Shown here in pieces: positions 26,202 to 43,033 of a stretch of DNA of 64,000 bases. Every line of letters starts with the position of its first letter. Position 1 is the stretch's first letter. The notes beneath the pieces were generated by a model. The model worked only from the letters and a program-made list of their open reading frames with translations, was not told the DNA's origin and searched no databases. Source of the DNA: a virus; IMG/VR virus record IMGVR_UViG_3300020390_000002, positions 27,336 to 91,335 of that record. One strand, given 5' to 3'. A program made the translations under genes and the position numbers.

Positions 26202-28135
26202 CAGGCAGCGTCCTCCACCAGGGTCGAATAGCCGCCCTCTTTCACCAGCGTCATCGACGTGCGAATCCAGTCGCGCAACGGGTTGTGTGACACCACGATC
26301 ACCGTGCCCTTCTCGCGCGCCTTCTCCTCCAGCACCGCCATCAGGCGCTCGAGGCCCGCCGCGTCCAGTGCGTCGTCGATCTCGTCGGCGATATACAGGC
26401 CGATCGGCTTCTCGGCGCGCGAGGCCACGAGGTCCTGCAGGGCCATTGACGTGGCCAGCCGGACCTTGCGCTTCTCGCCGCCCGACAGGCTGCGGAAGGA
26501 CTCCGCGGCCGTCGTGGAGGTGGCCGCGATATGGAACTTCTCGCGCGCCTCACCCTTCGACGTCTCGCCGATGGTCGACCACACGGCTGACAGATTGCCG
26601 TCGGACAGCACGCCCAGGTAATGCGCAGTGCGGTCATTCAAAAACGGGGTGACCTCGTCGAGAATGTAGCCGCGCACACCCGCCGGCGAGAACACGTCGC
26701 AGGCGGCCTCCATCGGCTTCATAGCCTGCTTCTGATCGATAAGCCGGCGCGTGACGGCCACCAGCTCGCTCTTCGCTCCATCGGCGCGCTCACGTGCTTT
26801 GACCAGCATGGCCGTATACGGGTTGACCTCGTCCTGCGCGGTGGCCAGATTGGCCTCGCAGGTATCCTTGATCTCGCCGGCGCGCGTGATGCGATTGCCG
26901 GCATCGCGGTGCTTCTGAATCTCGGCGTCGACGCGGTCGCGCGCATCGAGCATCTTGCTGATGTCCGTCATGGAAGACTCGTAATCGGTGACGCGCTGCG
27001 CTGCGATCTGAGCGCGTTTCTCCGCTTCCGAATACGCTGATAGCGCTTTGTCCGCGTTCTCCTGCTCACGCGCGAGCTGCGCGCTGATGCGGGCCTTTTG
27101 ATCGGCCACATCATCCTCGCAATACAGCTTTCCGCACTCACCGCAGGGCTTGCCGGGGATCTGTTCGACCCGGTCGAGCGCACCCTGACTGGCCTTGACG
27201 GCATTGCGCGCAGTGTTCAGCGCGTTCAGCGCCGTGTTCTGCTGGTTGATCAGATTGCCCTGCTCGGCCAGCAGTCGATTGTGTTCGACCTTCTCGCCCG
27301 ACACGCCGTTGATTCTGTCGCCCACCTTCGCCCGCATGTCGTTGAGCTTGGTAAGCGGGGTCAGGCGCCCGGCGTCGGCCTGGGCGGCCTTGAGTGAAGC
27401 GACGGCCTCGTCCAGCGCCTTCTGCGCCGTCTCGATCTTGGTCGCCTGGGTGCCGCCCCAGCCGGCCTCGTTGGTGGTCAGCTCGTCTACGCGGCGCTTG
27501 GCGTCGTCGAAAACCTGGCGCTTGGCATCCTGGTCACGCACCAGCGATTCGATCTCCTTTTCCAGCGCGCCGCGCCGGGTGCGCGCCTCGACATAGGCAC
27601 GCTCGAGCACGGTCACGCCCGCCGCTTCCTCGACAATCGCCTTTAGTTCGCGATCGGTCATGCCCGGCAGGTCCGGCATCTTCTCCTGGCCGGAGTAGAT
27701 CGCGGCATTGAATACGTCCACCGGCGCGCCGATCAGCCGCTCGACCATTTCCTGGGTGAGCTTGTTCGTGCCCTTCGTGACGTCGACGCCGTTGTGATAG
27801 ACCCACAGCTTGGACTTGAGGGTCTTGTGCTTGCGTCCGCGGCTCACGACCCAGTCGCTGCCATCCGCAGGATCGGTCAGGCCGATGGTCACGGAGCAGC
27901 CCTTGCCGGCAGTGCGATTGATGACCTCGTCGCCGGAGTCGCCTTTGGCCGTGATGCCGTAGAGGCACCAGGACAGCGCGTCCGGCAGGCTGGACTTGCC
28001 GGCACCGTTGGAATCGGCCGAGCTGTCGTCCAGATTCTTGCCCTGCAGCAGCAGCAGCCCGAGCGAATCGAGGCTGTTCAGGTTGGCCCGGCCGATCGCG
28101 CCGAAGTTTTCAAGATGAATGGACTGGAACTTCAT
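26201..28135 (-). CDS. sbcC: SbcC/gp46-like recombination ATPase, 644 aa
   Basis: SMC-like ATPase that with SbcD (T4 gp46/gp47, Rad50/Mre11) processes DNA ends for recombination. Walker A SNGAGKSSL at about residues 43-51, coiled coil about 180-470, zinc hook CGEC at about residue 335, ABC signature LSGGEKRKV about 553, Walker B YIADEIDDALD about 583 and the H-loop VSHNP near 620. Length fits phage gp46. It overlaps sbcD by four bases. Operon partners are ruvC and sbcD. Confidence 0.92.
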   Translation of the reverse strand: MKFQSIHLENFGAIGRANLNSLDSLGLLLLQGKNLDDSSADSNGAGKSSLPDALSWCLYGITAKGDSGDEVINRTAGKGCSVTIGLTDPADGSDWVVSRGRKHKTLKSKLWVYHNGVDVTKGTNKLTQEMVERLIGAPVDVFNAAIYSGQEKMPDLPGMTDRELKAIVEEAAGVTVLERAYVEARTRRGALEKEIESLVRDQDAKRQVFDDAKRRVDELTTNEAGWGGTQATKIETAQKALDEAVASLKAAQADAGRLTPLTKLNDMRAKVGDRINGVSGEKVEHNRLLAEQGNLINQQNTALNALNTARNAVKASQGALDRVEQIPGKPCGECGKLYCEDDVADQKARISAQLAREQENADKALSAYSEAEKRAQIAAQRVTDYESSMTDISKMLDARDRVDAEIQKHRDAGNRITRAGEIKDTCEANLATAQDEVNPYTAMLVKARERADGAKSELVAVTRRLIDQKQAMKPMEAACDVFSPAGVRGYILDEVTPFLNDRTAHYLGVLSDGNLSAVWSTIGETSKGEAREKFHIAATSTTAAESFRSLSGGEKRKVRLATSMALQDLVASRAEKPIGLYIADEIDDALDAAGLERLMAVLEEKAREKGTVIVVSHNPLRDWIRTSMTLVKEGGYSTLVEDAA

Positions 28136-34975: not shown

Positions 34976-36154
34976 TTACACCGCTTCAGCGGCCTTCACG
35001 AACACTTCGTCCAGAAGGTTCTGGCGATCCGGCTCGAACGAGATCATCCCCGGATTGAGGCCGAAGATGATCGTGGCGTCGCGGCGCGTGTCGTACACGG
35101 CCTGCCCGCACAGTGCCTCCCAGCCGCCTTTGGCCTCCGGCACGAGGTGGCGTATCGACTTCGAGCCCAGCGCGATGATGACCGGCGGCTTCAGCAGCTC
35201 GATCTCCCGATCCAGGTAGCCGCTGCAGGCGTTGATCATAGCGTTGGTGATGCCGTCCTCGCCCTTGATCGACTTCACCAGCGTCGTGAAGTAGCCGTCC
35301 GAGACCTTGAGCCCGGCGTTCTTGAGCGCGGTCACAAGGAAGTTGGACGCCTTACCCTCGATCAGCTTGCCGGCCTGGTCCTCCGACCAATTCGGGCAAT
35401 CGGAAACGACCATGAACTTCGGCTTGCTGCCCAGGCGCGGCAGCGGGTGAACACCGCCGGCGAGCGGGCACTTGTCGCAGACGCGGGTCTCGTTGATCAG
35501 GTGGATGATCTTCGCCTTCACGAACTTGTCGACCACCACCTGCCGATCCGCCTTGACCACCTGATTGATCAGGCCGGGCAGCAGCTCGATCTGATCGCGC
35601 AGACGATCCGGGTGGCGGGCGTCGATCGACCCCGCTTCGATGGTCGCGAACGCGCCCACGCGGCGCAGACGATCCTGCACCAGCGAATTGCAGGCGCGCA
35701 GGCTCACGTTCTCGATCAGGTCGGTGATCGACTCGAACTTCCCGCCGGACTTGTCGCGCGCCTTCATGATCGCCTGGCTGCCCTTGTCGGACACCCCCTT
35801 GACTGCAGAGAACGGCATCACGATCGTGGGCTTGGCGCGGCCCGTGTCCCAGGCGATCTCGAAGCGGTCGGTCGACTCGTTGATATGCGGCGGCATGACC
35901 AGGATGCCCTCAGCCTCGATCGCGCTCACCAGCGACGGCCGGCGGTCCTCGTCGGCCATGTCCAGCGATGCCGCGAAGAACTCGGCCGCGTAGTAGGTCT
36001 TGAGATACATGGACCAATAACTGATGACGCTGTATTCGCACGAATGTGACTTGTTGAAGGCGTAACCGGCGAACTTCTCGATGCGCGAAAACAGCGCGTG
36101 CGCGGCGGTCTCCTCCATGCCAGGGTCGGCAACACTTACGCTCTTAATTTTCAT
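34976..36154 (-). CDS. dnaE: DNA polymerase III alpha, C-terminal half fused to a UDG-like domain, 392 aa
   Basis: After a short foreign start (MKIKSVSVADP) the protein continues polymerase III alpha at EKFAGYAFNKSHS (residues 26-38), through SYWSMYLKTYYAAEFFAA (45-62) and PFSAVKGVSDKG. This is the part following the finger region in ordinary DnaE. From about residue 225 a second domain begins: CDKCPLAGGVHPLP, KFMVVSDCPNWSEDQAG, INACSGYLDREIELL, PPVIIALG, like family 4 uracil-DNA glycosylases, with Cys residues in place for an Fe-S cluster. The usual GEAPG active-site block is SDCPN, so catalysis is doubtful. Overlaps the HNH gene by ATGA. Confidence 0.85.
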   Translation of the reverse strand: MKIKSVSVADPGMEETAAHALFSRIEKFAGYAFNKSHSCEYSVISYWSMYLKTYYAAEFFAASLDMADEDRRPSLVSAIEAEGILVMPPHINESTDRFEIAWDTGRAKPTIVMPFSAVKGVSDKGSQAIMKARDKSGGKFESITDLIENVSLRACNSLVQDRLRRVGAFATIEAGSIDARHPDRLRDQIELLPGLINQVVKADRQVVVDKFVKAKIIHLINETRVCDKCPLAGGVHPLPRLGSKPKFMVVSDCPNWSEDQAGKLIEGKASNFLVTALKNAGLKVSDGYFTTLVKSIKGEDGITNAMINACSGYLDREIELLKPPVIIALGSKSIRHLVPEAKGGWEALCGQAVYDTRRDATIIFGLNPGMISFEPDRQNLLDEVFVKAAEAV

Positions 36155-36858
36155 TTTGCCTCCGCCAGCTTTCGCTGAATTTGTGTTCTTGAAAAGCCCA
36201 GTTCGCCAGCAATCTGATGAAGCGTTAAGCCCCGACCCTTCAGGTTCAGCGCTTGACTTACGTCAGCCGCAGTCATCCTTCGGAGCTTGCGTTTCTTGTC
36301 GGCTAGTGGCCCCGCTACGTGTTTGTATTTTTGCCCCGAGCAAACACGCCAGACGTAGGGCGCGGTCAACCCAGTTGATCGCGCTATTTCGTCATAAGTA
36401 GCTCCCCCCTCGCGTAGATTGCGAATCGTCACCACCTGGTCCGGGCGCAACTTCGACCAGCTCAAGTCGATGTCGCTCGGCTGCGTCCCGTGAACCAGCT
36501 TGTCGGCGCAGTTTTCAGAGGGTGTGCCGTAGCGGAGGTTTTCGATCCCGTCATTACCCGGCACGTTGTCACCGTGCAGAACGTAATAGCCGGCGGGACA
36601 CTCGCCGAGGAATGCCTCCGCGACGAGCCTATGTCGAAACTCCCAGTGTCTAACGCCGTACAGGCTAAATTCGACCCATATATAGCCCCACGGATGACGG
36701 CGCTCGAGCAGCTTATTAAGAGCTGGAACCGTTCTCAGATGCCCGCGTCCGCGGCCCTGGCGAACAACATAAGACTGGCGGCGAAGCGCACCATAATTGG
36801 ACGCCTCTATTATGTTGTCGAATCGAGCTATGGGTCGCCAAATCTCTACATCAGCCAC
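36151..36858 (-). CDS. HNH homing endonuclease (NUMOD4 type), 235 aa
   Basis: Starts at GTG (36856-36858). The N-terminus EIWRPIARFDNIIEASNYGALR is a NUMOD4 domain, then the HNH core HRLVAEAFLGECPAGYYVLHGDN...NLRYGTPSEN (about residues 77-115), then two helix-turn-helix blocks (ATYDEIARSTGLTAPYVWRV; LTLHQIAGELGFSRTQIQRK). Sits exactly in the break of the polymerase gene, overlapping both halves by a few bases; such nucleases cut and spread into unbroken copies of their target gene. Confidence 0.88.
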   Translation of the reverse strand: MADVEIWRPIARFDNIIEASNYGALRRQSYVVRQGRGRGHLRTVPALNKLLERRHPWGYIWVEFSLYGVRHWEFRHRLVAEAFLGECPAGYYVLHGDNVPGNDGIENLRYGTPSENCADKLVHGTQPSDIDLSWSKLRPDQVVTIRNLREGGATYDEIARSTGLTAPYVWRVCSGQKYKHVAGPLADKKRKLRRMTAADVSQALNLKGRGLTLHQIAGELGFSRTQIQRKLAEAK

Positions 36859-39241
36859 CGAGCAACTCCTTGCCGTCTATGTCGGCTACGTCTCGAAGCG
36901 CCTCTTCGACCGTTCGTCGCAAGCCGTCTGCGCATTTGAATTTCCTAGCCCTGTGGACTCTTACGGTCTGCCCATCTTCTAGCTCCACACTCACCCAGCC
37001 GGCAGTAGCTCCAGCCACGAACTGCTCACGCTGCTTTGCCATTTCAGCCGGCAGCTTTTTACCCATTGCCTTCCTGAGAAAATCCGCATCCGCCATCGAG
37101 TAGCCGGCCAGGTCGCGGGCGACCTGCATTACCTGCTCCTGGTAGACGATCACGCCGCCGGTCTCTTCGAGCCCCGCCTTCATGCTCGGGTGCTCGAAGA
37201 TCGGCTCCCCATAGGACTGACGGAAGCTCACGTAATCCGCCATCAGGCCCGACTCCATCGGACCCGGCCGATACAGCGCGGTCGCGGCGGACAGGTCGTC
37301 GAATGTCAGATCGCCGGCCACCGCGAGGTCGCGCAGCAGCTTGCGCATGCCGGGCGATTCGAACTGGAACACGCCGGTCGTGGCGCCCTGCCCGAAGGCG
37401 CTCATGACCTTCGGGTCGTCCAGCGGCATGTCCAGCAGGTCGAGACGCTTGCCGTGACGCCGCTCGACGAGGTCCAGCGCGCGCGAGAGCACGTCCAGGG
37501 TGGACAGGCCGAGCACGTCGAGCTTGACCAGCCCCATGTCCTCCGCGGTGCGCTTATCCCAGTTGACGCAGTAGTCGTCACCGCGTCGCTCGATCACGCC
37601 GCGCTTGACGATCGGCTCCCCGGCAACCGCGACGCCGGCCGCGTGGCGTCCCATAGAGCGCAGCTGCCCCTCGAGCGCGCAGGCGTGCTTCCAGATCAGC
37701 GGGTGGCTGTCGCGGAAGCGCTCGACTTCGGCGATCTCGTCGGCGGCCCGCTCGAGCTTGTAGGGCGTGCCGCCCTCCTTCGGGATCAGCTTCGATGCTG
37801 TCAGGTCGATGTTGTCGAGCCCATAGACGCGCCCGACATTGCGCAGCGCGGAACTCGAGGCCATCGTGGTGTAGTTGGATATGCCAGTGACGTTCTCGCT
37901 GCCGTATTTGCCCACCAGGTAGGTGATCACCTCCTGGCGGCGCGTGGACATGAAGTCGAGGTCGGCGTCCGGCAGGTCGAGACGCTCGGGGTTGATGAAG
38001 CGCTCGAACAGCAGGCCAAAGCGCAACGGATCGACATCGGTGATGCCGATCAGATAAGCGACCAGCGAGCCGCCCACGGAGCCACGCCCCGGGCCGACGA
38101 TGATGCCCTCGTCCTTGGCCCATACCACGAGGTCGCGCACCAGCAGGAAGTAGCCGGCGAAGTTCATGTCGCGCAGCACCCCCAGCTCATACTGAAGGCG
38201 CGCGGCATAGGTCTTCTGCTCGGCGGCGTCGGGCATGTGCCCGAGCACCGGCTTGGCGAAGCGCGCCTTGAAGCCCGCCACGCAGAGCTTGCGCAGCTCC
38301 CCATATTCGTCCGCCGCCATCTCAGGCAACGTGATCTGAGGAGCGACCCATGTGTATTTGATCAAGGATGCGAGCGACTCATTGCCGCGCAGGGCCTGCG
38401 CTGCAGAGCGCTTCGCATCTGGATCGCCGCAGCGCTCGAGTGTCGCGATTGTGCGCTTCGCAAGATCGTGCGCAGCCAGGGGCGCGTGATCGCGGGTGAA
38501 CGGAATGCGCCGCCACGGAGAGTCCATGCGGTCATTGGAGACGATGGTGGCGTAGACGTCCTTGGCGTCAGCGAGCATCGGCGTCTCGTAGCGAGCGCCG
38601 TAGCTGGCCAGCAGCGGTAGTCCATGTGCAACCGCCATACTCAGGGCGCGCGCATTCAGCGTGTCGTAGAGCGGCGTCTGAATGCTCTCGACGCGCATGA
38701 ACAGATGTGACTGGGGCGTGACTAGATCGCTTGGGCAGCTCATCAGCGCGTCGAAGATCATCGATATATAGCGCTGATAGTCCTGCAGATGAAAGACGCT
38801 GAAAGCGTCAGACGTGACGCACGCCAGGTTGCCCTTACGCAGGGCGTCGCACAGCTCAGGCAGGCCCACGCGGGGCACGTAGTAGAAGAAATCCCGCTCA
38901 TGCGCCCGGCTCAGCAGCCGGGTCAGGTCCTCGAATCCTTGCGCGTTGACGATATACAGGTCGAAGAAGCACTCGGGATTCGGCTTTTCGATCTCGCCGC
39001 TGCGCGCGGGGGGCTTGCGATAGGTCGGGTCCTCGACCACGCGCACGCGCGCGCCGACGATCGGGCGCACGCCGGCCTCCTCGCACGCCTTCGTGAAGGG
39101 GATCAGCGCAGAGATGCTCATGGTATCCGCCAGCGCCGCGGACTCGTAGCCCGCAGCCTTCGCTGCAGCAGCCAGGGCTTTGGGCGACAGGAGACTTTCG
39201 CCGCTGGAGAAGTGGGTGCGACCGAACAGGGTGAGCTTCAT
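36851..39241 (-). CDS. dnaE: DNA polymerase III alpha, N-terminal half, 796 aa
   Basis: Replicative polymerase, C-family. N-terminal PHP domain is degenerate: HxH is GRTH and the TDH block is ADT. Palm: GPGRGSVGGSLVAYLIGI (about 380-397), PDADLDFMSTRR with the catalytic Asp pair (about 424-435), KLDVLGLSTLDVL with the third Asp (about 575). ALYRPGPMESG and YQEQVM follow. Polymerase homology stops after AKQREQFVAGA. The last 47 residues (WVSVELEDGQTVRVHRARKF... to GKELLGG) are not polymerase and look like part of a Hint/intein fold. The other half is at 34976-36154. Confidence 0.92.
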   Translation of the reverse strand: MKLTLFGRTHFSSGESLLSPKALAAAAKAAGYESAALADTMSISALIPFTKACEEAGVRPIVGARVRVVEDPTYRKPPARSGEIEKPNPECFFDLYIVNAQGFEDLTRLLSRAHERDFFYYVPRVGLPELCDALRKGNLACVTSDAFSVFHLQDYQRYISMIFDALMSCPSDLVTPQSHLFMRVESIQTPLYDTLNARALSMAVAHGLPLLASYGARYETPMLADAKDVYATIVSNDRMDSPWRRIPFTRDHAPLAAHDLAKRTIATLERCGDPDAKRSAAQALRGNESLASLIKYTWVAPQITLPEMAADEYGELRKLCVAGFKARFAKPVLGHMPDAAEQKTYAARLQYELGVLRDMNFAGYFLLVRDLVVWAKDEGIIVGPGRGSVGGSLVAYLIGITDVDPLRFGLLFERFINPERLDLPDADLDFMSTRRQEVITYLVGKYGSENVTGISNYTTMASSSALRNVGRVYGLDNIDLTASKLIPKEGGTPYKLERAADEIAEVERFRDSHPLIWKHACALEGQLRSMGRHAAGVAVAGEPIVKRGVIERRGDDYCVNWDKRTAEDMGLVKLDVLGLSTLDVLSRALDLVERRHGKRLDLLDMPLDDPKVMSAFGQGATTGVFQFESPGMRKLLRDLAVAGDLTFDDLSAATALYRPGPMESGLMADYVSFRQSYGEPIFEHPSMKAGLEETGGVIVYQEQVMQVARDLAGYSMADADFLRKAMGKKLPAEMAKQREQFVAGATAGWVSVELEDGQTVRVHRARKFKCADGLRRTVEEALRDVADIDGKELLGG

Positions 39242-39693: not shown

Positions 39694-40848
39694 CTACCCG
39701 AACAGACGCTGGGCGTAGTTGTCGCAAGTCACGCGGGAGGTCTCCGGCAACTTGTTGATGAACGCCTGACGCAGGCCCAGGTGGAAGTCTCCGCGGCGGA
39801 TGCCGATCATTCCGGCGAAGATCAGCTCGCGCTGACCGATCGGATTCGACCCGGCGGATTCCGCGAAGTCCCGGCGCACATCGTTTGCGAAGCGCACGAG
39901 CTTGTCGGCGTCGTCGGGTTCGATGTGGCACTTCGAGATCAGCAGCGCCTTCTCCTGGCTCGCCGGCATGTAGGGGACATTTTCGACAATGCCGAATCGA
40001 GAGTAGTTGGCGGCGTTCTGAATCTGGGTGCCCGCGTAGAGCCCCGTCTCGTCACCCGATCCGTTCGTGTTGCCGGTGGCCAGGAAGCGGAAGTTCGGGT
40101 GCGGATTGATCACGCGCCACTCCTCATCGGCGTCCTTGATCACCAGCGGTTTGCCTTCCAGCACGGGCTGATAGGCCAGCAGCACGGCGGGCATGGCCGC
40201 GTCGTACTCGTCGGCGAGATAGGTCCAGCCATTGCGCATCGCCAGCGCGAGCGGACCCGGCGCGAAGTAGGTGCCCTGCTCGTTGGCCTGCAGCTGACCC
40301 ACGATCTGACACTCTTCGGTGTTGATCGTATGCTGGATGCGCAGCATCGGCAGCTTGAGGTGATGCAGCACCTGCTCGAGCATCGTGGTCTTGCCGGTGC
40401 CGGTGTGGCCCCAGAGATACGTCGGGATATTCAGCTCCAGGCCCATGCACACCGCCTTGAGCATGCCGATGTCGAAGATGTAGTTCGGGTCCTGCGCCGG
40501 GACCATGTCCGAGAACTCCCCGCGATTCGAGACCTTGAGCATGATCGGGCGCCCGCTCTTGGAGGCACCGTCGGGAATGCCGAACACTTCGTTGAACGGC
40601 ACCAGGTCGAAACCTTCCTTGCGGGCTTTCTCGCGCGCCTGCTCGTCCTGCTCGGTGACTTCATTGCGCTTGGCCTGAAGCTCGAGCCAGCGCTTTTTCG
40701 CCAGCTCACTGAACAGCGGCGCGTCCGGGTAATCGGCCCGATACTTCTCGATGGTGATCTCGGGGTGCGCGTCCTCGAGGTGCTTTTTCATCACGTGCGC
40801 TTTGGCGCCGCATATCTGACAAGTGATCTTTTCGTTCGGTTGCGTCAT
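39694..40848 (-). CDS. cobS: CobS-like AAA+ ATPase with N-terminal zinc finger, 384 aa
   Basis: MoxR-group AAA+ ATPase related to the CobS subunit of cobaltochelatase. Walker A GHTGTGKTT (about 147-155), Walker B WTYLADEYDAAMP (about 207-219), sensor LATGNTNGSGD (about 258), ETGLYAGTQIQNAANYSRF (about 269-287). The first 30 residues carry CQICGAKAHVMKKHLEDAH, a C2H2-type finger absent from bacterial CobS. No other cobalamin gene is present, so corrin synthesis is unlikely. With CobT it probably remodels a protein or nucleoprotein complex in replication. Confidence 0.85.
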   Translation of the reverse strand: MTQPNEKITCQICGAKAHVMKKHLEDAHPEITIEKYRADYPDAPLFSELAKKRWLELQAKRNEVTEQDEQAREKARKEGFDLVPFNEVFGIPDGASKSGRPIMLKVSNRGEFSDMVPAQDPNYIFDIGMLKAVCMGLELNIPTYLWGHTGTGKTTMLEQVLHHLKLPMLRIQHTINTEECQIVGQLQANEQGTYFAPGPLALAMRNGWTYLADEYDAAMPAVLLAYQPVLEGKPLVIKDADEEWRVINPHPNFRFLATGNTNGSGDETGLYAGTQIQNAANYSRFGIVENVPYMPASQEKALLISKCHIEPDDADKLVRFANDVRRDFAESAGSNPIGQRELIFAGMIGIRRGDFHLGLRQAFINKLPETSRVTCDNYAQRLFG

Positions 40849-40936: not shown

Positions 40937-43033
40937 TCAGCGTGCGCCGGACAGCAGCAGCGTGCGCACCTGATCAAGAACGGTGGTCGCCAGGTCGCCA
41001 ACCTGGTTCAGCACCACATGACGGCTGTAGAACTCCTCTACTGCGTCGGACATGATGCCGATACCCACGACCTTCGTGCCGGAGCCCTCGATCTCCTTGA
41101 TCGCCTGCTTGAGATGCCAGGGATGCCGCGACCCGCCCGCGCTTGTGGGCATGCCGTCGCTGAGCACGATCATGATTTTGTTACTCTCGCGCTGCGCCAT
41201 CAGTCGCCGGTGAGCAATGAGAACCGACTCGCCATCGACGTTATCCGAAACCGCGCCCGTGAATGAGGACCAATAGACGTTGTCCTTGTGCTCCTGGCGC
41301 ATCGGCGTGCCGAAGGGCTTCAGGATTGGCATCATGAGCGGCATCATGCGGTTGTATTCAACCGACCCCGGCGCGCGGCGCGCGGCGTCGGTCGCCTCGT
41401 AATAATGCTTCGGGTCATATTCGGTGGTGAAACCGATGATTTCGCAATTCACCCGCATGCGATCGAGCACCGACCCCAACGCATAGGCGGTCTGCGCCGC
41501 ACGTAGCGCCTGGGCACCGTACATGGAGCCCGACATATCCACGACGAGCTGCACGGCCGCGTCCTTGCTCGTGTGAACCTCCTTGCGGCGAAACACGCGA
41601 GAATCGCCAACCTGCAGCCGGTGAAGCGCCGATCCGCTGAGCTTGCCGGATCGATAGCCGCCCACATGATAGGACTGGCTGCGCGCCTCGATCGCGCGTT
41701 CGAGCTTTTTCTGAATCACGCCCGCGAGCCCGTCCACCGACTCGAAGAACGCCGAGCGTCTGCGGGTGTCACGCAGCATCGATTCATCCGATGGGAGCGG
41801 TCGGGGTGGGCCGATATAGTCGTGCTCCGTGGTGTAGGCAATATACTCGCCCCGCGACTCGTCCAGCCACAGCTTACTGATGTGTTCGGACAGCTCGGCA
41901 TCGAAGTCAGGCAGGTCGTTCGGGTCGATCGGCTGCAGCGCCTGAGCTGGCTCAGAATCGTCGGAATCGCCGTCGGAGTCCTTGTTGGCATCCGGAGGGG
42001 CGCCGCCGTCGCTCTCGTCGCCGTCGTCGTCTTCCTGATCGGGCGTCTTGGGGGCTTCGCCCTCCGAGTCGTCCTCACCTTCGGAGTCGTCCTCACCTTC
42101 GGAGTCGTCCTCACCGTCCGAGTCGTCCTCGCCTTCGGAGTCGTCCTCGCCTTCGGAGTCGTCCTCGCCTTCGGAGTCGTCCTCGCCTTCGGAGTCGTCC
42201 TCGTTCTCGCCTTCCGAGCCGTCCTCGCCCTCGCTTTCGGATTCGGCTTCGTCGCTCTCGTCCTGGCCGGAGTCCCCCTGCTGGTCATCGTCGTCACTTT
42301 CAGACGGCTCTTCGCCTTGCTTGGAATCATCATCGGCATCCTCATCGGGCTGCCCACCACCACCCCCGCCCGGCGGCGGCGGCGGATCGTAGGCGCTGAT
42401 GCGTTCGGCAATGTCGATCGCCAGGTCGAGACTATCCTGGCTGCTCTCGATCTTGGGTAAGCGGGCGATGAGGTCCTCGCCGATCAGATCACGCACGGGC
42501 TGGACCAGCTCCTGCTTGTCCCGCGCGTAGTGTTCGCACTCCGCGTGGCCAGCCCAGGCGCGCAAGAAGACCACGCTCAGCGCGGACCAGACGCTGTTGG
42601 GGTCCAGGCGGCCGGCAGCGACCAGCTTCTGGAAATTCGGGTCCACCATCGTGTTGCAGAAGTAGTCTCGGGTGTTCGCCAGATTGATGTCGGACCCCGA
42701 AAAGCGGCGCGCCATCGCGCGCTCGATGAAGGTGTCCTCAAGCGCGTTCCAGAGGCCGTGCATGCCCAGCTCCTGAGCCTTGCGCGACACGCTCGAATCG
42801 GTGAACAGAACGTGTGCGACCTCATGGTCGAGAAAGCCCTGCACTGCACGAATGAAGGTGTCCGAGGCGTTGTCGGGGATGTAGGGGATATAGACGGCCT
42901 TCGGCTGACCCGTCTTGGGGTCCCACACGACTTTCGCCTCATGTGCACGCATGACCACCTTGATTTTCTTTTCGGCGATCATCGACGCGACACGGGGCAG
43001 CGCGTCGCGGAGTTGGTTAATGCGTCGGTTCAT
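40937..43033 (-). CDS. cobT: CobT-like VWA-domain protein, 698 aa
   Basis: Partner of CobS. N-terminal part contains LDHEVAHVLFTD (about residues 68-79), a zinc-metalloprotease-like HExxH. A long acidic region (about 225-370) is built of repeated SEGEDD units. The C-terminal von Willebrand A domain has the MIDAS LVVDMSGSMYG (about 495-505) and SDGMP later. MoxR-VWA pairs act as chaperone-like machines; the target here is unknown. Monocistronic with its own operator. Confidence 0.85.
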   Translation of the reverse strand: MNRRINQLRDALPRVASMIAEKKIKVVMRAHEAKVVWDPKTGQPKAVYIPYIPDNASDTFIRAVQGFLDHEVAHVLFTDSSVSRKAQELGMHGLWNALEDTFIERAMARRFSGSDINLANTRDYFCNTMVDPNFQKLVAAGRLDPNSVWSALSVVFLRAWAGHAECEHYARDKQELVQPVRDLIGEDLIARLPKIESSQDSLDLAIDIAERISAYDPPPPPGGGGGGQPDEDADDDSKQGEEPSESDDDDQQGDSGQDESDEAESESEGEDGSEGENEDDSEGEDDSEGEDDSEGEDDSEGEDDSDGEDDSEGEDDSEGEDDSEGEAPKTPDQEDDDGDESDGGAPPDANKDSDGDSDDSEPAQALQPIDPNDLPDFDAELSEHISKLWLDESRGEYIAYTTEHDYIGPPRPLPSDESMLRDTRRRSAFFESVDGLAGVIQKKLERAIEARSQSYHVGGYRSGKLSGSALHRLQVGDSRVFRRKEVHTSKDAAVQLVVDMSGSMYGAQALRAAQTAYALGSVLDRMRVNCEIIGFTTEYDPKHYYEATDAARRAPGSVEYNRMMPLMMPILKPFGTPMRQEHKDNVYWSSFTGAVSDNVDGESVLIAHRRLMAQRESNKIMIVLSDGMPTSAGGSRHPWHLKQAIKEIEGSGTKVVGIGIMSDAVEEFYSRHVVLNQVGDLATTVLDQVRTLLLSGAR
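42062..42240. repeat. 18 bp tandem repeats in cobT
   Basis: About nine copies of TCGGAGTCGTCCTCGCCT-like units, in frame, coding SEGEDD. Slippage would change the length of the acidic linker without breaking the frame. Confidence 0.85.

Follow-up and report, generated by a model that had tools for sequence, protein, structure and literature searches.

The 64,000-nt stretch of viral DNA analysed here (the window, positions 27,336 to 91,335 of IMG/VR record IMGVR_UViG_3300020390_000002) encodes DnaE, the alpha subunit of DNA polymerase III, as two minus-strand open reading frames (ORFs), 36851-39241 (796 aa, the left half) and 34976-36154 (392 aa, the right half). Between them lies a third minus-strand ORF, 36151-36858 (235 aa), for a putative HNH homing endonuclease, which overlaps the left stop codon by 8 nt and the right start codon by 4 nt. 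The left half had the Pfam domains PHP, DNA_pol3_alpha and DNA_pol3_finger, while the right half had HHH_6 and a uracil-DNA-glycosylase (UDG) domain. The left half ends in an additional segment, the tail, that resembles part of the N-terminal fragment of a split intein (IntN), and the right half begins with a short segment, the head, located where the C-terminal fragment (IntC) would start. The features, all on the minus strand, are:

37010..39241: PHP, palm/thumb and fingers, which make up the N-terminal part of DnaE (left-half residues 1-744; alignment with intact homologues; Pfam PHP E 2e-13, DNA_pol3_alpha E 2.5e-74, finger E 4.4e-52)
36854..37009: tail (ATAGWVSVELEDGQTVRVHRARKFKCADGLRRTVEEALRDVADIDGKELLGG), left-half residues 745-796, resembling the intein stretch between block B and the IntN end (homology to the phage SSU5 insertion, PDB profile, fold match)
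36851-36853: stop codon of the left half
36151..36858: HNH homing-endonuclease-like gene, 235 aa, GTG start (Pfam HNH_3 E 1.6e-11; PHROG HNH endonucleases; missing from intact relatives)
36511-36639: HNH_3 domain of that gene, with helix-turn-helix (HTH) motifs C-terminal to it
36159..36163: Shine-Dalgarno sequence of the right half (GGAGG, 4 nt before its ATG)
36122..36154: head, the first 11 right-half residues, MKIKSVSVADP (position and an M-K-I-x pattern in relatives; part of the fused SSU5 insert)
34976..36121: C-terminal part of DnaE, the rest of the fingers with FNKSHS and the helix-hairpin-helix (Pfam HHH_6 E 1.8e-15; PHROG 405 DNA polymerase, 4335)
35039-35425: UDG domain at the DnaE C-terminus (Pfam UDG E 1.2e-11)

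In the alignment with intact phage DnaE, the two halves separate precisely between ..REQFVAGA and ..EKFAGYAFNKSHS, within a single loop of the fingers and about 23 residues ahead of FNKSHS. Both halves aligned end to end with the intact protein, and all of the enzyme parts were kept between the two pieces. An earlier reading of the window, made from the sequence alone (the sequence-only reading), had claimed that DnaE homology breaks where the halves meet and that the gene was broken by the HNH gene; both claims were borne out, and intact homologues without the HNH gene were common. The intervening gene had been described as a NUMOD4-HNH gene overlapping both halves. The overlaps, an HNH_3 domain (E 2e-11) and HTH motifs were found, but Pfam detected no NUMOD4 domain in the window's protein; NUMOD4 was present in a close homologue of the endonuclease (Pfam, E 3e-10). 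In the 91,335-nt viral record around the window, the left half of the polymerase was matched once.

The same break recurred in many phages and phage-plasmids with a tail of about 45 residues and a head of about 11 residues. Among 80 viral-contig relatives, 76 were uninterrupted at the site and four (L006, L016, L038 and L075) had the same split, tail and head. A search of plasmids with the tail gave 865 records, mostly phage-plasmids of about 110 kb from Klebsiella, Escherichia, Acinetobacter, Enterobacter and Salmonella; the Klebsiella-type HNH A was found in 243 plasmid records and the E. coli-type HNH B in 25. The states of the site read in representatives were 1) empty, 2) split with a type A endonuclease (NUMOD4-HNH_3), as in the window, Klebsiella, a Salmonella Typhi plasmid and most of the A. 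baumannii alleles read, 3) split with a type B endonuclease (NUMOD3-HNH, unrelated to type A), as in L098, L100, L075, L155, L162 and L214, 4) split with no endonuclease or only a remnant, as in L091, L097, L130, L092 and L166, and 5) fused into a single ORF, as in SSU5, PhiR41_1, Cyrano, Providencia and Moellerella. Cyrano, which carries the fused form, makes virions (PMC9928086). Beyond what could be seen in the window, the tail and head move as parts of a mobile element, one endonuclease can be exchanged for another, and in-frame fusion can rejoin the halves.

Outside DnaE, the tail was absent from phage records at E<=10 except for two weak matches at E 5, from about 45,000 ORFs of the relatives' loci and from bacterial genome contigs; the tail search also gave a weak match to a Thermus phage ribonucleotide reductase (E 0.5). 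No complete intein was found at the DnaE site among the 80 viral relatives, the loci from 64 nickie-type matches or 80 bacterial contigs. In the Acinetobacter phage-plasmids L166, L092 and L205, compared with L164, L165, L168, L173 and L175, an internal deletion in the HNH gene of some alleles left a 63-aa ORF with NUMOD4 only, and the polymerase was still split; L205 also had a frameshift in the tail.

Several observations indicate that the interruption is mobile. On a tree of the polymerase constructed without the insert, the distribution of inserted alleles required at least nine changes of state, a count that is approximate because some of the branches are long, and the grouping of all inserted alleles as one clade was rejected (p-AU 1e-33). 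The split type A allele L086 and the fused allele L089 were 95-100% identical in DNA sequence over most of the gene and 67-73% identical at the site. Similarly, pairs of the SSU5 group that differ in state were 95-100% identical over most of the gene and approximately 65-85% identical in the 150-450 nt beside the site. Conversely, L086 and L093, both split with type A, were mostly 75-88% identical over the gene and 93% identical at the site. These tracts, which come from relatives and not from the window itself, are homing-like in that they are those expected from homing with co-conversion of the flanks. Together with the HNH domain and the presence or absence of the gene among alleles, they mark the HNH gene as one of the homing-endonuclease kind, whose product would presumably cleave the uninterrupted site. 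The direction of individual fusions is presumed to be from split to fused.

Over 38 residues, the tail shared 68% identity with a segment inserted in frame in the DnaE of Salmonella phage SSU5, which is an unbroken protein of 1172 aa. In fused relatives, the ratio of nonsynonymous to synonymous substitution rates (dN/dS) was 0.04 for the tail and about 0.2-0.3 for the heads. The identity to the SSU5 insertion and the low ratio argue that the tail is a real protein segment and not a chance translation, and purifying selection of this strength in the fused forms means that the module must at least fold. The fused tail of Cyrano was 76% identical to the split type A tail of L086 and 31% identical to that of SSU5.

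The sequence-only reading had likened some 47 residues of the tail to part of a Hint domain, and profile and structure searches supported this, both placing inteins first. Single-sequence searches of the tail against Pfam and NCBIfam gave matches at chance level only, so that a profile was required; the broad tail alignment was too variable for a DNA-pattern search. A profile of 18 tails with their heads was searched against 177,635 PDB sequences, and the first 14 matches were DnaE split inteins, from 7qil at E 3.5e-4 down to 0.06, followed by an unrelated protein at E 1.2. The best alignments had no gaps and extended from LEDG (block B) as far as the IntN end, the portion of the Hint fold to which the relationship is confined. 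None of 300 column-shuffled control profiles reached the real score (best 6.2 vs 19.6 bits). The divergent tail of L214, which was outside the profile, matched the same inteins by itself (E 0.0012), and hhalign gave a probability of 93% against three split inteins. The fused insert modelled alone by AlphaFold2 had moderate confidence (pLDDT 67), and Foldseek ranked inteins 1-14 in the PDB for this model, several superposing over 37-42 residues at 1.5-1.9 Å. When the insert was predicted within the fingers, the pLDDT was about 90 and Foldseek returned DnaE structures first, with inteins among the next matches.

The tail of L214 (3036-5244, a nickie-type phage) was the most intein-like one (VWEIELNDGSVVQVNSKNKYLTEEGEYCLIEEIERRGLSLHL), and this allele retains an extein cysteine (GC) where most other inserted alleles have alanine.

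The element resembles the cyanobacterial DnaE split inteins (Npu, Ssp) in its host protein, in its location in the same part of the fingers and in the gapless alignment of the tail to IntN from LEDG to the end, but it keeps only about 57 of approximately 138 intein residues. The phage insertion is about 23 residues upstream of FNKSHS, the site of the cyanobacterial DnaE inteins. The cyanobacterial DnaE split inteins are not known to have an endonuclease.

The residues needed for splicing had been noted as missing, and this held in every member read. There was no block A with a catalytic Cys or Ser at the N-terminal junction, where the extein runs straight into the tail (FVAGATAG-WVSVELEDG), and no C-terminal block F/G with His-Asn, the head of 8-12 residues running straight into the C-terminal half. 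Consequently, the element, though an intein relative, does not by definition qualify as a functional intein, and trans-splicing is not expected.

If nothing is spliced, two chains must work together, as the sequence-only reading had concluded. Most right-half starts are preceded by Shine-Dalgarno-like sequences (in the window, GGAGG 4 nt before the ATG), and the reading-frame relation between the DnaE halves was not conserved among relatives. The split was retained after loss of the HNH gene in L130 compared with L132, whose backgrounds are nearly identical, in A. baumannii L166 and L092 compared with L164 and L168, and also in L091 and L097. At least four lineages have lost the endonuclease and are still split, so a polymerase of two chains must be workable, which indirectly suggests that the halves form an active enzyme.

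In split inteins, IntN reportedly takes part in capture by its second half and IntC by its first half. These correspond to the parts kept in the element, and it is therefore proposed that the tail and head dock the two halves, which would then assemble non-covalently. The tails are mildly acidic and the heads mostly mildly basic. According to PMC11766414, which cites Shah et al. 2013, naturally split inteins assemble by capture and collapse, in which disordered acidic parts of IntN catch the basic IntC and the rest then folds.

Taken as a whole, the locus is probably best explained as a mobile relative of split inteins that has been reduced to the docking part, and that both breaks the polymerase and supplies the module for its reassembly. 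The explanation builds on features read from sequence comparison, i.e. the split, the intein relationship of the tail, the loss of the catalytic residues, the recurrence, the conversion tracts and the constraint on the tail. The element would consist of three coding parts, the tail on the first half, the HNH homing endonuclease and the head on the second half, and the endonuclease would move the whole unit by homing into dnaE alleles that are uninterrupted or differently interrupted. The tail and head would be relatives of the inner stretches by which the fragments of a DnaE-type split intein recognise each other (block B through the IntN end, and the start of IntC), and with the catalytic parts missing (Cys1 of block A, His-Asn of blocks F/G) there would be no splicing. 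Translation would give two polypeptides, whose tail and head may fold together as a small beta-rich module in the fingers loop, holding the halves in one working polymerase. Once the element is fixed, the endonuclease could be swapped or deleted, or it could be lost together with the stop and start codons, which would leave a fused polymerase still bearing the module. The observation made in the sequence-only reading is thus confirmed, and its interpretation supported and extended.

Several points weigh against this explanation, 1) the E-values of the intein matches are modest (best 3.5e-4) and the match covers just about 40 residues, 2) the Foldseek E-values are weak (best 0.04), although inteins hold the first 14 ranks, 3) the head, whose likeness to the beginning of IntC was the weakest part of the sequence-only reading, comprises 11-12 residues and is too short for a statistical test, so that the likeness is one of position and pattern only, with M-K-I-x at the same position in nearly all split relatives, 4) tail and head contrast less in charge than the corresponding parts of Npu DnaE do, 5) several heads of split type A alleles do not have a strong Shine-Dalgarno sequence and 6) the support for every member consists of sequence comparison and predicted structures.

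The main alternative is that the locus is a plain case of genes in pieces, in which an HNH gene was inserted, the halves assemble by the polymerase's own interfaces, as is assumed for the split genes of T4-like phages, and the tail and head remain as a scar that can fold but plays no part in docking. In the T4-like phages, nrdA of Aeh1 is split by mobE, gene 43 of Aeromonas phage 25 is present as gp43A/seg43/43B, 43A and 43B of 44RR are separated by a non-coding IC-UTS, and gp39/gp60 of T4 are associated with mobA (PMC2988022). The halves work together, and the split enzymes of Aeh1 (NrdA) and Aeromonas phage 25 (gp43A/B) function (PMC2988022). The window has the same arrangement, with intact homologues elsewhere and a free-standing homing endonuclease gene between the pieces of an essential replication gene, and here too some relatives are split with no endonuclease. 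Moreover, the fused forms still hold the module, and the constraint on the tail may reflect just a need to fold. Unlike the T4-like cases, the element has DnaE as its host and splits it at the same place in many lineages, with endonucleases of either of two families, and it carries an intein-like tail and head, a module of a kind not reported for those cases in the review (PMC2988022). Every split allele read had the tail and head, across polymerase backgrounds that are unrelated and with either kind of endonuclease, as expected of a working part of the element, and a mere scar seems unlikely.

It is very improbable that some unusual chemistry still lets the element act as a split intein, by trans-splicing or cleavage. 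The tail is homologous to IntN, and the split-intein fractured genes of Dassa et al. 2009, cited in PMC3653736 and PMC11766414, reportedly have a similar arrangement of an N-half with an intein-like tail, an endonuclease ORF, and an intein-like head with the C-half. However, the element differs from the fractured genes so described in its NUMOD4-HNH or NUMOD3-HNH endonucleases and in the absence of Cys1 of block A and of His-Asn, so that trans-splicing is not expected. No member has a Cys, Ser or Thr at a splice junction, and the fused alleles still have the insert, in frame within the coding sequence.

Phage introns often harbour HNH genes, so the tail and head might be read-through sequence of a group I or II intron spliced from the RNA. 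This was effectively excluded, as there was no Rfam match at E<=1 in 35800-37300 of the window, the tail and head are conserved as protein (dN/dS well below 1) and present in fused ORFs, and split alleles with no HNH gene have only about 100 nt between the stop codon and the right-half coding sequence. Lastly, although the window is a single metagenomic record, an error of sequencing or assembly in the frame, one of the grounds on which the sequence-only reading said it could be overturned, was refuted because complete plasmids and phage records, coming from many laboratories, show the gene arranged in the same way.

The system combines genes in pieces with a non-splicing relative of split inteins and has a fair chance of defining a new class. 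The chances stand about even that this is a class of mobile element that splices neither RNA nor protein, in which a permanent break in the host protein is offset by a docking module that is the fragment-capture half of a split intein and that, fused in frame in some lineages, is left as a permanent domain of the polymerase. The site links split inteins with endonucleases to genes in pieces via natural intermediates (empty, split with either endonuclease, split with none, and fused), and offers a tractable case of how split enzymes reassemble, a question called open in the T4 literature (PMC2988022). An intein may lose splicing yet stay useful as an assembly module; if so, a non-splicing docking element would be an alternative end point of intein evolution. 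The element sits in the replicative polymerase of common phage-plasmids, where the left half is currently annotated as dnaE and the right half as hypothetical or as uracil-DNA glycosylase.

A C-terminal UDG-superfamily region (35039-35425 in the window) was common to the aligned intact DnaE of SSU5, nickie, RHph_X66 and ANB28, and the fusion of polymerase and UDG could be relevant to how these phages deal with uracil. A short DNA polymerase family of 476 positions, phrog_21652, was matched by the left half up to and including most of the tail, and the right half matched phrog_4335, a family of unknown function that appears to be the DnaE C-terminal part plus UDG. Further along the window, the gene at 40937-43033 (minus strand) is placed as the CobT-like genes of related phages are and encodes a long low-complexity acidic repeat (SEGEDD); it is adjoined by a CobS-like AAA ATPase gene at 39694-40848.
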